DNA of 64,000 bases from Dysgonomonas sp. 520. GTDB lineage: Bacteria; Bacteroidota; Bacteroidia; Bacteroidales; Dysgonomonadaceae. Positions 5,710 through 14,123 of the stretch are shown piece by piece. The position numbers were made by a program, and so were the translations under genes. Position 1 is the first letter of the stretch; each line of letters opens with the position of its first letter. The DNA lies in assembly GCF_010501095.1 (NCBI RefSeq), contig NZ_QVMP01000010.1, positions 1-64,000 on the forward strand, read 5' to 3'. A model generated the notes under the pieces. The model did not search any database. It saw nothing but the letters and a program-made list of their open reading frames with translations, and was not told the DNA's origin.

Positions 5710-5739
5710 TTGTTCAAGAAGAATATTTGTCTACCTTTG
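5710..5739 (+). promoter_or_regulatory. promoter pointing into the regulator cassette, locus 1
   Basis: TTG at 5710-5712, 19 bases, then TACCTTTG at 5732-5739, an exact Bacteroidota promoter. It starts after the rRNA terminator and points right, into the 3' end of the minus-strand regulator gene, so today it makes RNA antisense to that gene. The mirror-image locus has an equivalent -7 box at the same distance from its repeat (14116-14123, minus). Confidence 0.6.
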
Positions 5740-5745
5740 TATCAT

Positions 5746-5800
5746 AAAGTAAGATCATAATCAGGAATCTGTCACTGGGTAAGTGACGGATTTTGTTGTT
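5746..5800 (+). ncRNA. candidate 55-nt RNA, locus 1
   Basis: Predicted from parts: a promoter -7 box ending at 5739, a start about 7 bases later, the inverted repeat at 5768-5790 folding as a 9-bp hairpin with loop GGGTA, then TTTTGTTGTT. The hairpin is perfectly complementary over 23 bases to the 5' UTR of the surface-protein gene at 6997-7791, loop facing loop (GGGTA with TACCC). Existence and function are inference. It also runs antisense to the last codons of the regulator gene. Confidence 0.4.
5768..5790. repeat. 23-bp inverted repeat 1L
   Basis: Left copy of a perfect 23-bp inverted repeat whose partner lies at 6886-6908. Internally it is GTCAC-TGGGTAA-GTGAC, with half-sites shared by the second locus but a different centre. 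It holds the TGA stop and last codons of the regulator gene. No target-site duplication is visible outside the pair. Confidence 0.9.
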
Positions 5801-6632
5801 TAAGGGGGTATTGTTTCACATGATTCGCCCCTTTGTTTTTGCGTCTTATCCGGGACGGGGAATCGCCCAGGTTCTTATGGCAAAACTCATTGAAGTGAGA
5901 CAGTGTTGCGAACTTATTCTCAGTCGAAATTTGCTTCAAACTCTTATTCGTATGATAAAGCTCATAATAAATCATATCTGTCCGCCTTTTTCTAATCCAC
6001 GAGTATGCCGACATGCCGAACGCCTTTCTGAACCTCTTGTTAAATCCTGAATAGCTGTAATTCATCACTTGTGCCAATTGTCTGACATTCATTATATTGT
6101 TGGCTAACCTGTGTACCCGGTCCACGAACCGGAAATCATTAATTTGATATGAGCGGAAGAAATCGCTCAATTGCTCCCGTGAATAGGATAGCTTAAGGAT
6201 TGCCATCAGTTCTTTGGTTTTCAGGACGTGCAGGGAGTGATCAGCTATCCTGCTCTTTTTATATATCTCAAGCGACCGTACATACGCCTGTAATACCCCG
6301 TCCATTTGCAGGCAGTATAGGTTTGATTCATGTTCATGTTCATGTATATTGCTTATACAGAAGTGATCAAAACAGCTTTCATCGGTCGGAGCTACAATCA
6401 GCAGATAGCTTTTTTCCATAACACTGGACGACAGCCTGTCGCCTGCAGGCAGGAAAAATAGTTTTGAGCTGCTAACCTGTATTCCAGAAGACAGGCTTAA
6501 GCGTCCTTCCAGCACTATGACAATCCTGCATTGATCTTCTGCGGTATTCCATTCAGAGTCTTTTTCAAGAGTCAGGAAGCGTATCAAGGGACTTTGCGCC
6601 AACGATTCGTTGTTATCATATTTTACCATCAT
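5772..6632 (-). CDS. AraC-type transcriptional regulator, locus 1
   Basis: A 286-residue protein. The C-terminal third (about 175-265) resembles an AraC-type double helix-turn-helix: YSYSGFNKRFRKAF is the first recognition region and KFATLSHFNEFCHKNLG followed by SPSRIRRKNK the second. The first 110 residues look like a cupin-type sensor (VLEGRLSLSSG, LFFLPAGDRL), with no clear ligand motif. Its closest relative in the window is the gene at 13225-14037, strongly alike through the DNA-binding part. The gene fills a segment flanked by 23-bp inverted repeats and its stop codon lies inside the left one. A secreted protein gene starts divergently 364 bases upstream and is the likely target (inference). 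Confidence 0.85.
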   Translation of the reverse strand: MMVKYDNNESLAQSPLIRFLTLEKDSEWNTAEDQCRIVIVLEGRLSLSSGIQVSSSKLFFLPAGDRLSSSVMEKSYLLIVAPTDESCFDHFCISNIHEHEHESNLYCLQMDGVLQAYVRSLEIYKKSRIADHSLHVLKTKELMAILKLSYSREQLSDFFRSYQINDFRFVDRVHRLANNIMNVRQLAQVMNYSYSGFNKRFRKAFGMSAYSWIRKRRTDMIYYELYHTNKSLKQISTENKFATLSHFNEFCHKNLGDSPSRIRRKNKGANHVKQYPLKQQNPSLTQ

Positions 6633-6802
6633 AAAGTTGTTTAAGTATTAAAAACCAGCGTGTTTAACTAAAAACGCACAAGTCTTATTTTTATCAGTTT
6701 TTTAAAATTGTATGTTTTCTACATATAAATAATTATCAATCAATGTATTACTGAAATAGTAAAACGTTTTATTTCCCCGACAGATAACACACGTTTAACA
6801 AA

Positions 6803-6831
6803 TTGCTTACTTGGTTGTATTATCGCCTTTG
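6803..6831 (+). promoter_or_regulatory. candidate surface-protein promoter, locus 1
   Basis: TTG at 6803-6805, 18 bases, then CGCCTTTG, a degenerate TAnnTTTG. The other locus has TAGCTTTC at the matching place, 55 bases from its repeat against 54 here, and both are followed by ATTAATTAAA. It would give a 5' UTR of about 160 nt with repeat 1R at about +49 to +71. The rest of the 6633-6996 gap is AT-rich with no other gene. Confidence 0.4.
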
Positions 6832-6885
6832 TTCCATTAATTAAAGATCATAATACCAGATGTTTACCCCTTGGTATCTGCATCC

Positions 6886-6908
6886 TCCGTCACTTACCCA
6901 GTGACAGA
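6886..6908. repeat. 23-bp inverted repeat 1R
   Basis: Right copy of the perfect inverted repeat pair, 1095 bp from the left one. It sits in the predicted 5' UTR of the surface-protein gene, 88 bases before its start codon. Unlike the left copy it has no T-run after it, so it can fold but should not terminate. Confidence 0.9.
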
Positions 6909-6996: not shown

Positions 6997-7791
6997 ATGA
7001 AAAAAAGTTTATTATTCTTACTGCTGTTTTTAGCGGTAACTACCCTCAAATCGCAGGTTGGGGTGAACACGGAAACTCCTCAGGGGGTCTTTCATATTGA
7101 CGGGCAGCGAAACACAAACGGAAACACGAACGTCGCCGACGATGTGGTTGTCACATCAGCCGGAAACGTGGGCATAGGCACGAACAGTCCCCAGACAAAG
7201 GTCGATATCCGCAGCACGACACAAGGCGGTGGATTTAGGTTGCAGGACGGGAGCCAGGGCAATGGTATGGTCTTGACCAGTGATGCCAGCGGCAATGGCA
7301 AATGGTCTGCGCCGGGATTTAGCTTGTTTACGAGGATTGAACCCAATGAATTACCTGTTTCTCAAGGGACAACGGCAATTTTAAGAAACAGTGATGGTTC
7401 TCCCTACTTTATAGAAGTTCCTTCTTTTGGAACATATTCATTTACGATTGGTGCTATGTTAAAATTAACTAATTTAAATGAGAATACAGTAATCGAGTAT
7501 ATGATTTTACAGGTGGTTCCAGGGGATGATGCTAGTTTGTGGTGGTCACTTCATCGCTTTGAGGGCTCGTATGAGATTTATGGGCAGCAGGCTCGTAGAG
7601 ATTTAGAGACAGATTGGCGTTTTTATCTTAGTGAGAATATCTCACTAAACTCAATTACAGGAAATAGGTTGTATTTTGCGCTACAGATAACAGGAACAAA
7701 TATGCCTAGTCCAATAGAGGGAACTTTCACAATAGGTAGCACCCCTAGTTGCCCACAATGTACCGGCGGCTCCTATGTCCGCATCAATTAA
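6997..7791 (+). CDS. secreted fibre-like surface protein, locus 1
   Basis: 264 residues with a signal peptide (MKKSLLFLLLFLAVTTLKS, cleavage about residue 19). Residues 20-108 match the protein at 12075-12890: QVGVNTETPQGVFHIDG, RNTNGNTN, DDVVV, NVGIGTNSPQTKVDIRS, DGSQGNGMVL. The VGIGT-SPQTKVDI pattern is typical of beta-rich trimeric stems in fibre-like proteins of Bacteroidota and phage tails. Residues 110-264 do not resemble the other copy, so the tip domain differs. Two Cys lie near the C terminus (CPQC). The function is unknown; an adhesin or receptor-binding role is inferred. It is transcribed away from the adjacent AraC-type gene and its upstream region carries inverted repeat 1R. Confidence 0.75.
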   Translation: MKKSLLFLLLFLAVTTLKSQVGVNTETPQGVFHIDGQRNTNGNTNVADDVVVTSAGNVGIGTNSPQTKVDIRSTTQGGGFRLQDGSQGNGMVLTSDASGNGKWSAPGFSLFTRIEPNELPVSQGTTAILRNSDGSPYFIEVPSFGTYSFTIGAMLKLTNLNENTVIEYMILQVVPGDDASLWWSLHRFEGSYEIYGQQARRDLETDWRFYLSENISLNSITGNRLYFALQITGTNMPSPIEGTFTIGSTPSCPQCTGGSYVRIN

Positions 7792-12074: not shown

Positions 12075-12890
12075 TTAATTTGTAAGGGCAAAAGCTGCGA
12101 TAGCATTCTCAAGGTTCTGAGCTCTTGCTATCACTAGAGGAAACATTCTGTCTGGAGCAGCAAAACTAGCAGCAGATGCATACAATGCAACTGTTACAGG
12201 AGCAGTGTGGATATTGTCTATAATCAAGAATCCGGTTATCATACTGGCTCCAAAAGGATATACTCTTCCACTTACTAAAGAAGTGTTGGTAGGGTATATT
12301 ATATACGGAGCTTCAGCTGCTACAGCGGCTCGAAAATGAGTTCGTACCCATACATGAGCATAAGGGAGATCTGCATTTGTAGGTCTTGTGTACATATTAT
12401 TAGGCATAGCATGTACAGCTACCATAACAAACCATCTGCCGGGAGGCAAACTCAATCTGCATCCGGTATCATAACTTACACCTCCAGTAGTGGTGAAAGT
12501 AAGTCCATCATTGGCAAATATTGCCCGAGGAGCGGCTACTGTTGTTCCCACATCTTGCCACTCAGCCCTTCCTGTATTATCCATCGCAGTCAATACCCTG
12601 CCTATGGCTTGCGAACCGTCCCGCAAGCTGAAACCCTGCCCTTGTGCACTGCTTCTGATATCTACTTTTGTTTGGGGTGCATTTGTTCCTACACCAACCC
12701 TACCTAGGGTATCTACCACTACATCGTCCGAAATGTTTGTGTTGCCGTTTGTGTTTCGTGCCGCGTCAATGTGAAATACACCTTGCGGACTTTCTGTGTT
12801 TACTCCAACCTGTGCCATTAAAGAAACCGATAGGAAGAATATTTGCACAGTAAAAAAAATCTTCGTTTTCATCATTTTGTTTTTTCTCAT
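12075..12890 (-). CDS. secreted fibre-like surface protein, locus 2
   Basis: 271 residues from the first ATG. The tandem ATG at codons 6-7 (12875/12872) may be the true start, since it leaves a standard signal peptide (MKTKIFF to SLMAQ). Residues 27-120 match the protein at 6997-7791: QVGVNTESPQGVFHID, RNTNGNTN, DDVVVDTLGRVGVGTNAPQTKVDIRS, DGSQAIGRVL. The C-terminal 150 residues are unlike that copy and contain GGVSYDTGCRLSLPPGRWFV, which suggests a beta-sandwich tip of C1q/TNF-like shape (a guess from pattern). An adhesin or receptor-binding function is inferred. The gene diverges from the AraC-type gene at 13225-14037. Confidence 0.75.
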   Translation of the reverse strand: MRKNKMMKTKIFFTVQIFFLSVSLMAQVGVNTESPQGVFHIDAARNTNGNTNISDDVVVDTLGRVGVGTNAPQTKVDIRSSAQGQGFSLRDGSQAIGRVLTAMDNTGRAEWQDVGTTVAAPRAIFANDGLTFTTTGGVSYDTGCRLSLPPGRWFVMVAVHAMPNNMYTRPTNADLPYAHVWVRTHFRAAVAAEAPYIIYPTNTSLVSGRVYPFGASMITGFLIIDNIHTAPVTVALYASAASFAAPDRMFPLVIARAQNLENAIAAFALTN

Positions 12891-12949
12891 ATTAGTTGTT
12901 TTGTGTGTTTATGAAATATTTTAATACCTGATTATTTGCATCGCAATCA

Positions 12950-12972
12950 TCCGTCACTTATAAGGTGACAGA
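12950..12972. repeat. inverted repeat 2L
   Basis: A 23-bp repeat with core GTCAC-TTATAAG-GTGAC, matching the partner at 14066-14088 in inverted orientation at 22 of 23 positions. It lies in the predicted 5' UTR of surface protein 2, the equivalent of repeat 1R. Confidence 0.88.
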
Positions 12973-13027
12973 AATGTTAATGCTTTGTTTGTAAAATGTT
13001 TATATCGTGGTATTTAATTAATCGCAG

Positions 13028-13035
13028 GAAAGCTA
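13028..13035 (-). promoter_or_regulatory. candidate surface-protein promoter, locus 2
   Basis: TAGCTTTC on the minus strand (one base off TAnnTTTG), 55 bases inside repeat 2L. The surrounding ATTAT-GC-TTT and ATTAATTAAA match locus 1. It would give a UTR with the repeat at about +50 to +72. The rest of the 12891-13224 gap is AT-rich without a gene. Confidence 0.4.
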
Positions 13036-13224
13036 TAATTCGATAATGTGAGCTATTTGTTAAACATATTCATCGTCCTATGTATATGAGACGTTTTATG
13101 TTATCACTAATATGCTGATAATATGATATTTCAATGAAATAAATGCAGGCTTTGAAAAATATACACAAAAATAATTTGTGCAATTTTCGTTAAACACGCT
13201 GAATCTTAATGCTTAAACAACAAA

Positions 13225-14037
13225 ATGATGAAAAAACTTGATGTTGAGAAACCGATAGATTTCGTCTGTCTGAAACAAGGGCAGACTTTGTGTTTGGAGG
13301 CAGGAGAAAACAAGATTATCCTGGTTGTGGAGGGAGAGGTATATTGTAGCATCTCTAAGATAACGATACTTGCTTCAAAAATGGCTTTTTATTCTTTCAG
13401 AGAAAAAGTATCGGTTGTGGCTGTGAAAGACTCCCAAATCGTTTTATTCCGGTTTTCGTACGAATCGCATCTTTGTAAAGTCTTGTCTCCTTTGGATGTA
13501 ACGACCGAGCGAATAGACGGCAGAACGATTCTGCTTCCGGTGAAAAGCATCATTATGGACTATCTGCAAACCGTTAAAGTATATAACAGCAGGTTTATAG
13601 TAGATAGTTATTTGTCGGACTTAAAGCTAAGGGAATTCGGGTATATACTCAAGTCCGTTTATAAGGAAAACCAATTACAGGATTTTTTCAGGCTTCTGCC
13701 CTATGATGATATGTTGTTTTTTCAGATGGTATATTCATTTCTTCCCGAAATTCGTTCGGTAGGCCAGTTGGCACAAAAAATGAGTTACAGCTATTCGGGT
13801 TTTAACAAGCGTTTTCGACGGGTTTTCAATACATCGGCATACAATTGGATAAAAGAAAATAAGGCGATACAGGTTTTTAGAGATATCTGCCAAACAAACA
13901 TGAGCCTGAAGCAGATTAGCAACAGCCATAAGTTTGCAACCTTATCTCATTTCAATGAGTTTTGTCATAAGAATCTGGGTAATTCACCGTCACAAATTCG
14001 AAGAAAAAATAAAGCGAAACATATTGTTCAACTTTAA
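13225..14037 (+). CDS. AraC-type transcriptional regulator, locus 2
   Basis: 270 residues, a paralogue of the regulator at 5772-6632. The N-terminal sensor-like region (VVEGEVYCSIS) is strongly diverged. The C-terminal AraC-type DNA-binding part (about 175-262) is closely conserved: MSYSYSGFNKRFRRVF, SLKQIS, KFATLSHFNEFCHKNLG, SPSQIRRKNK. The next ATG (13228) is an alternative start. The gene lies in a segment bounded by inverted repeats 2L and 2R, with 1093 bp between them against 1095 in locus 1. Here the stop is 29 bases before the repeat. The divergent surface-protein gene is the likely target (inference). Confidence 0.85.
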   Translation: MMKKLDVEKPIDFVCLKQGQTLCLEAGENKIILVVEGEVYCSISKITILASKMAFYSFREKVSVVAVKDSQIVLFRFSYESHLCKVLSPLDVTTERIDGRTILLPVKSIIMDYLQTVKVYNSRFIVDSYLSDLKLREFGYILKSVYKENQLQDFFRLLPYDDMLFFQMVYSFLPEIRSVGQLAQKMSYSYSGFNKRFRRVFNTSAYNWIKENKAIQVFRDICQTNMSLKQISNSHKFATLSHFNEFCHKNLGNSPSQIRRKNKAKHIVQL

Positions 14038-14054
14038 GAAAAAGTGAACTCATT

Positions 14055-14109
14055 AAATAAAAAAATCTGTCACCTTATAAGTGACAGATGACTTGATGCC
14101 CTGACTATC
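14055..14109 (-). ncRNA. candidate 55-nt RNA, locus 2
   Basis: Mirror of the candidate at 5746-5800. A minus-strand TACATTTG (14116-14123), a start about 7 bases on, repeat 2R folding as an 8-bp hairpin with a 7-base loop, then a run of seven T and ATTT. The hairpin is complementary to the 5' UTR repeat of surface protein 2, with one G-U pair. The terminator shape is stronger than in locus 1. No expression evidence is available. Confidence 0.42.
14066..14088. repeat. inverted repeat 2R
   Basis: Partner of 2L, core GTCAC-CTTATAA-GTGAC on the plus strand, 29 bases past the regulator stop. On the minus strand it is followed by a T-run, so it can act as a terminator for leftward transcription. 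Confidence 0.88.
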
Positions 14110-14115
14110 AGCGAA

Positions 14116-14123
14116 CAAATGTA
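14116..14123 (-). promoter_or_regulatory. promoter box pointing into the regulator cassette, locus 2
   Basis: TACATTTG on the minus strand, exact TAnnTTTG, 27 bases outside repeat 2R and downstream of the rpoC terminator. The -33 region has no clear TTG, so this is weaker than its counterpart at 5710-5739. Confidence 0.5.

Follow-up and report, generated by a model that had tools for sequence, protein, structure and literature searches.

What is the perfect 23-bp inverted repeat for that brackets an AraC-family regulator gene next to a surface-type protein gene at locus 1 (Table 1)? A sequence-only reading of the window, meaning the whole 64,000-nt stretch of DNA that was analysed, had proposed an answer at the level of RNA, in which a promoter before the left arm makes a short RNA ending in a terminator hairpin, the right arm lies in the 5' UTR of the surface gene, and the two hairpins kiss through their loops and then pair, controlling the surface mRNA. 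The follow-up reported here points elsewhere. The repeat pair is probably not a small regulatory RNA, and it very likely consists of inversion sites for a tyrosine recombinase, between which a regulator-bearing segment would flip, a fixed promoter and an orientation-dependent terminator setting the OFF and ON states.

Anatomy of locus 1

The arms are 100% complementary over their 23 bp, as had been claimed, with a spacing of 1,095 nt; in an inversion pair such complementarity comes with the geometry. They delimit a segment of ~1.1 kb encoding a regulator of 286 aa, whose stop codon (5772-5774) falls within site 1 and would survive inversion. The generic stem pattern is found at four places in the window, compared with a mean of 0.12 matches in shuffles. 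Window positions 12075-14123 contain another such cassette, complete with surface gene, regulator, promoter and both sites; its core is TTATAAG.

Table 1. Features of locus 1 and of the second cassette, in window positions
Feature	Position	Strand	Basis or remark
Fixed promoter outside the segment	5710..5739	+	TTG 5710-5712; -7 box TACCTTTG (TAnnTTTG) 5732-5739
Predicted aborted OFF-state leader, 55 nt	5746..5800	+	fold; inferred from promoter plus terminator; start inferred
Recombination site 1, regulator side; also OFF-terminator stem	5768..5790	+	core TGGGTAA 5776-5782
AraC-family regulator gene, on invertible segment	5772..6632	-	HTH_18 E 2e-16, ExsA_N E 4e-8
T-rich tract TTTTGTTGTT, inside segment	5791..5800	+	completes terminator in this orientation only
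Regulator upstream region, inside segment	6633..6885	.	without TAnnTTTG; candidate operator repeats weak here
Recombination site 2, surface-gene side	6886..6908	+	core TTACCCA 6894-6900, exact inverse of site 1
Surface-type protein gene	6997..7791	+	signal peptide; first ~103 residues conserved; C-terminal part variable, modelled as a beta-sandwich
Surface-type gene, second cassette	12075..12890	-	paralogue alignment
Second-cassette site, surface-gene side	12950..12972	+	site pattern
AraC-family regulator, second cassette	13225..14037	+	HTH_18 E 4e-14
Second-cassette site, regulator side	14066..14088	+	site pattern
-7 box TACATTTG of second-cassette fixed promoter	14116..14123	-	promoter motif

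Several elements described in the sequence-only reading hold. The promoter, assigned by the motif TAnnTTTG and ending 28 nt before site 1, has both its TTG and its -7 box, and recurs at fixed spacing in ~34 other loci. Folded as plus-strand RNA, the left arm forms nine pairs with the loop GGGUA (-12.2 kcal/mol, z = -5.2) and is directly followed by the T-rich tract, which is weaker here than in most other loci; the predicted leader as a whole folds at -17.5 kcal/mol (z -4.4). Other elements call for revision. As surface mRNA the right arm has only six stable pairs, because of a C-A mismatch (-6.9 kcal/mol). Locus 1 also has no TAnnTTTG promoter in the stretch from the regulator to the right arm, so that the placement of this arm in the 5' UTR of the surface gene is unsupported in the present orientation.

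Paired sites, private cores and a recombinase linked to such sites in relatives

In the 3.9-Mb genome the site pattern TCYGTCACYNNNNNRGTGACRGA occurs 84 times with at most one mismatch and 85 times with at most two, and a reversed-control pattern gave no matches in the same search. The exact pattern is found 79 times in this genome versus at most 7 times in any of the other 100 family genomes searched. Most sites are paired at ~1.05-1.19 kb around an AraC-type paralogue beside a surface-type gene; there are 43 matches to such regulator paralogues in the genome, and complete pairs with an AraC gene inside and a surface gene alongside number 36. The core, defined as the 7 nt between GTCAC and GTGAC, takes 16 distinct forms and is identical, as inverse copies, within 35 of these 36 pairs, compared with 3.4 matches on average and 12 at most when the pairing is shuffled. 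Sixteen cores imply that at least 15 core changes came to be common to the two partner sites. At an outer arm position (Y/R) the partners often disagree. Such identity within pairs is the behaviour expected of the overlap region in strand exchange, but core matching alone is not decisive, since a kissing-loop pair would favour matching loops too.

Essentially all sites of this assembly belong to known cassettes, and no extra flipped junctions were found in it. The single mismatched pair (L016 positions 3152 and 4236; G000:C22:198148-199254) has one site with the core of a neighbouring cassette, as if a core had been exchanged between the two, and may be locked. At another place (L038 around 4860; G000:C5:49856) a lone site, flanked by a promoter on one side and two surface genes on the other, has a regulator upstream and looks like a cassette after loss of its segment. 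One 394-bp segment (L033 3698-4108; G000:C54) has matched sites, no regulator, a promoter and terminator that are kept, and a larger adjoining surface gene, and one regulator paralogue (L058 2890-3636; G000:C54:7901) has no flanking site.

A site scan of ~85,000 species genomes yielded 52 stretches outside this genome, and a homologous tyrosine recombinase is encoded in 29 of the 39 Bacteroidota stretches with sites (from Dysgonomonas, Parabacteroides, Bacteroides, Alistipes, Rikenellaceae and Tannerellaceae) versus none of the 13 chance hits in other phyla. Complete strict site pairs in these relatives all have matched cores. The enzyme that recurs beside the sites there is a tyrosine and not a serine recombinase; serine recombinases occur elsewhere in the genome. 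This genome contains one close homologue, at G000:C6:55279-56535, with 47% identity against 31% for the runner-up. It has catalytic (Phage_integrase), SAM-like and arm-binding domains, groups in a tree with the site-adjacent recombinases of Dysgonomonas and lies ~5.7 kb from a cassette on the same contig. It is not adjacent to locus 1, on which it would act in trans, as it probably does on all of the ~40 cassettes. In a cassette near the recombinase (L027 3340-4833; G000:C6) the regulator and surface gene are codirectional and the first site is degenerate (GTGGC), so this cassette may be locked.

Inversion itself is visible in two other assemblies. In Dysgonomonas sp. 25, two contigs contain an identical 344-bp interior in opposite orientations next to the same right flank. 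In Tannerellaceae MI.5_5, the overlap between two contigs measures exactly 55 nt and the break falls directly after TAAAC, the bases common to both possible inner flanks (TAAACG versus TAAACT), a pattern that reads as the signature of a mixed population of orientations. In addition, Dysgonomonas sp. 521 has two homologous cassettes in opposite orientations. One locus of this genome, L017, is found in the flipped state: its regulator faces the surface gene and its T-rich tract is at site 2. Turned back in silico, L017 regains a terminator resembling those seen elsewhere in the family of loci. The remaining 35 of 36 complete loci share one orientation, the proposed OFF state, which suggests that flipping is rare, biased or conditional. 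Locus 1, which the assembly shows in one orientation, would flip as well. Contig ends were also considered as evidence for flipping and set aside: those near sites on C13, C25, C64 and C54 are explicable by near-identical cassette repeats, and the breaks at L059 and L096 are not tied to an orientation branch.

A fixed promoter and a predicted orientation-dependent terminator

An exact TAnnTTTG precedes the regulator-side site in 34 of the 35 unflipped loci, usually 27-29 nt away, and a T-rich run lies just inside site 1 in 34 of 35. The hairpin as found has a mean energy of -22.1 kcal/mol, a stem extension of 4.9 bp and 7.7 T in the best 9, compared with -15.9 kcal/mol, 0.9 bp and 4.8 T after inversion in silico. 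Because the fixed promoter would be terminated as found and free after inversion, the divergent arrangement now present is assigned as OFF, an assignment drawn from promoter and terminator motifs. In the proposed mechanism, a tyrosine site-specific recombinase would invert the segment between the two arms together with its AraC-type regulator gene. In the present orientation, the promoter would read into the terminator formed by site 1 and the T-rich tract and yield a short leader only, with regulator and surface gene lacking a conserved promoter. After inversion, the T-rich tract would have moved away and the promoter would read through the regulator, now pointing at the surface gene, giving expression of both. 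Flipping would thereby change expression.

One rival reading concerns which state is ON. The sites could be inversion sites while the divergent orientation is the active one, the regulator activating itself and the surface gene from the intergenic region and flipping changing or ending activation. The orientation bias fits this alternative, as do the candidate operator repeats TGTTTHAC upstream of the regulator in most loci, and a divergent layout of regulator and target is common among AraC-type activators; transcription in the divergent state could also start from regulator-dependent promoters whose sequence is atypical. However, inner TAnnTTTG motifs towards either gene are not conserved (2 and 4 loci of 35, a background rate), and the fixed promoter, the best conserved promoter of all, would never be useful. 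In addition, an inner promoter that would face the surface gene only once inverted is present in six loci here and in 11 of 19 relatives. We consider a divergent ON state unlikely, and retain the assignment of the divergent state as OFF.

The proposal that each locus makes its own RNA and target, with an RNA starting at 5746 whose loop and then stem pair with the 5' UTR of the surface mRNA and control it, draws support from the short transcript delimited by a promoter and a terminator in ~34 loci, and from loops that are specific to each locus and complementary, as kissing would demand. The comparison with relatives speaks against it. Recombinase-linked sites there often keep a promoter (20-40 nt upstream in 17 of 26), but a T-run is present in only 1 of 26, which indicates that the function common to the sites is recombination, not a terminated RNA; the terminator seems to have been added in this lineage. 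Some site pairs flank only 155-394 bp without a regulator, several of those from the wider scan 155-334 bp, and the stem is constant across genera, a constancy that RNA pairing would not require. The weaker, mismatched hairpin of the surface-mRNA copy, and the missing promoter that would place the right arm of locus 1 in a surface transcript in this orientation, count against it as well. Control by kissing and pairing is thus distinctly improbable, with relatives' sites lying beside a recombinase without regulator or terminator and with inversion visible in the two assemblies above. What stands of the short RNA is its prediction from promoter, hairpin and T-rich tract; what lacks support is the notion that the repeats serve RNA control, given that such sites also flank regulator-less segments beside the recombinase. 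Most likely the 55-nt "sRNA" is the OFF state's aborted leader; as such it is probably made, and it may have some secondary role. One cassette (L012; G000:C1:93148-94297) keeps promoter and sites, has no T-run after site 1 and has more surface genes nearby; from its fixed promoter, transcription would enter the regulator in the antisense direction.

Two further readings are less likely still. Palindromic, conserved arms, together with the strong conservation of the regulators' DNA-binding domains, would suit operators bound by the AraC-type regulators or another protein without recombination, a very improbable reading that leaves unexplained why private cores match within and not between loci, as well as the recombinase linkage and the segments seen in both orientations. 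That the arms are terminal repeats of a transposon-like mobile cassette that spread the regulator is scarcely credible, despite dozens of dispersed copies in one genome, since the segment contains no transposase, no target duplication was seen by eye in the listed flanks, and the outside promoter and surface gene stand at fixed spacing, making the conserved unit larger than the repeat-bounded segment.

The regulator and surface repertoire among known switches

The DNA-binding domains of the regulators are 74% identical on average versus 36% for the N-terminal domains, and direct repeats of the form TGTTTHAC-N3/4-TGTTTHAC lie upstream of most cassette regulator genes (weakly in locus 1), as a candidate operator common to the regulators. 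The two observations together make cross-talk between regulators plausible. The surface proteins share their first ~103 residues and diverge afterwards, in an alignment of 24 paralogues. The structural model of the locus 1 protein (pLDDT 80.6) has a C-terminal beta-sandwich for which C1q/TNF-like domains and fibre heads of bacterial and phage origin are weak matches, a likeness that is suggestive only; no match to this protein was found in Pfam or NCBIfam. A wider picture, in which one recombinase controls ~40 cassettes, private 7-nt cores keep most loci apart and cross-talking regulators let one flip set many surface genes, is offered tentatively, as possible but, taken whole, doubtful.

If the inversion reading is right, the genome would hold an unusually large inversion-controlled surface repertoire, in which inversion turns not a promoter but an entire transcription-factor gene, with an orientation-dependent terminator as its gate. 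The private cores would lend themselves to tests of how loci are isolated by core identity, as a set of recombination sites supplied by nature, and the case illustrates that a recombination site can, as a by-product, give a convincing signature of a small RNA. In the literature searched, mostly outside subscription journals, no paper was found that links phase variation to Dysgonomonas or an invertible transcription terminator to AraC, and none was found that describes ~40 cassettes with private cores in which a whole regulator gene is what inverts.

Known switches share parts of this design. In Clostridioides (C.) difficile cwpV, a recombinase inverts 195 bp between 21-bp repeats, and an intrinsic terminator has been proposed for the OFF state (PMC2784873). 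The likeness extends to a fixed promoter upstream of the repeats, an OFF-orientation terminator (predicted in the present case), a site-specific recombinase (putative in the present case) and a surface protein; by contrast, the cwpV segment contains neither promoter nor reading frame (PMC2784873), whereas here a whole regulator gene would be inverted, at ~40 loci. Bacteroides fragilis Tsr19/BF2766 offers a tyrosine recombinase of the Bacteroidales with a local and a distant site, surface molecules and TAnnTTTG promoters (PMC4747536; Weinacht 2004 via PMC12632263). In the B. fragilis Tsr systems the promoter lies on the inverted DNA (PMC4747536), whereas here the promoter is fixed outside and the regulator gene would move. 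B. fragilis Mpi is one trans-acting invertase serving many surface loci, as is proposed here, but is a serine recombinase acting on seven capsule promoters (PMC12632263, PMC4747536), in contrast to the putative tyrosine recombinase and ~40 regulator cassettes with private cores of the present genome. Finally, the E. coli fimS switch with FimB-FimE combines a tyrosine recombinase, inverted repeats and ON/OFF control of a surface structure, and differs in consisting of a 314-bp invertible promoter at a single locus (PMC9993118; PMC2784873).
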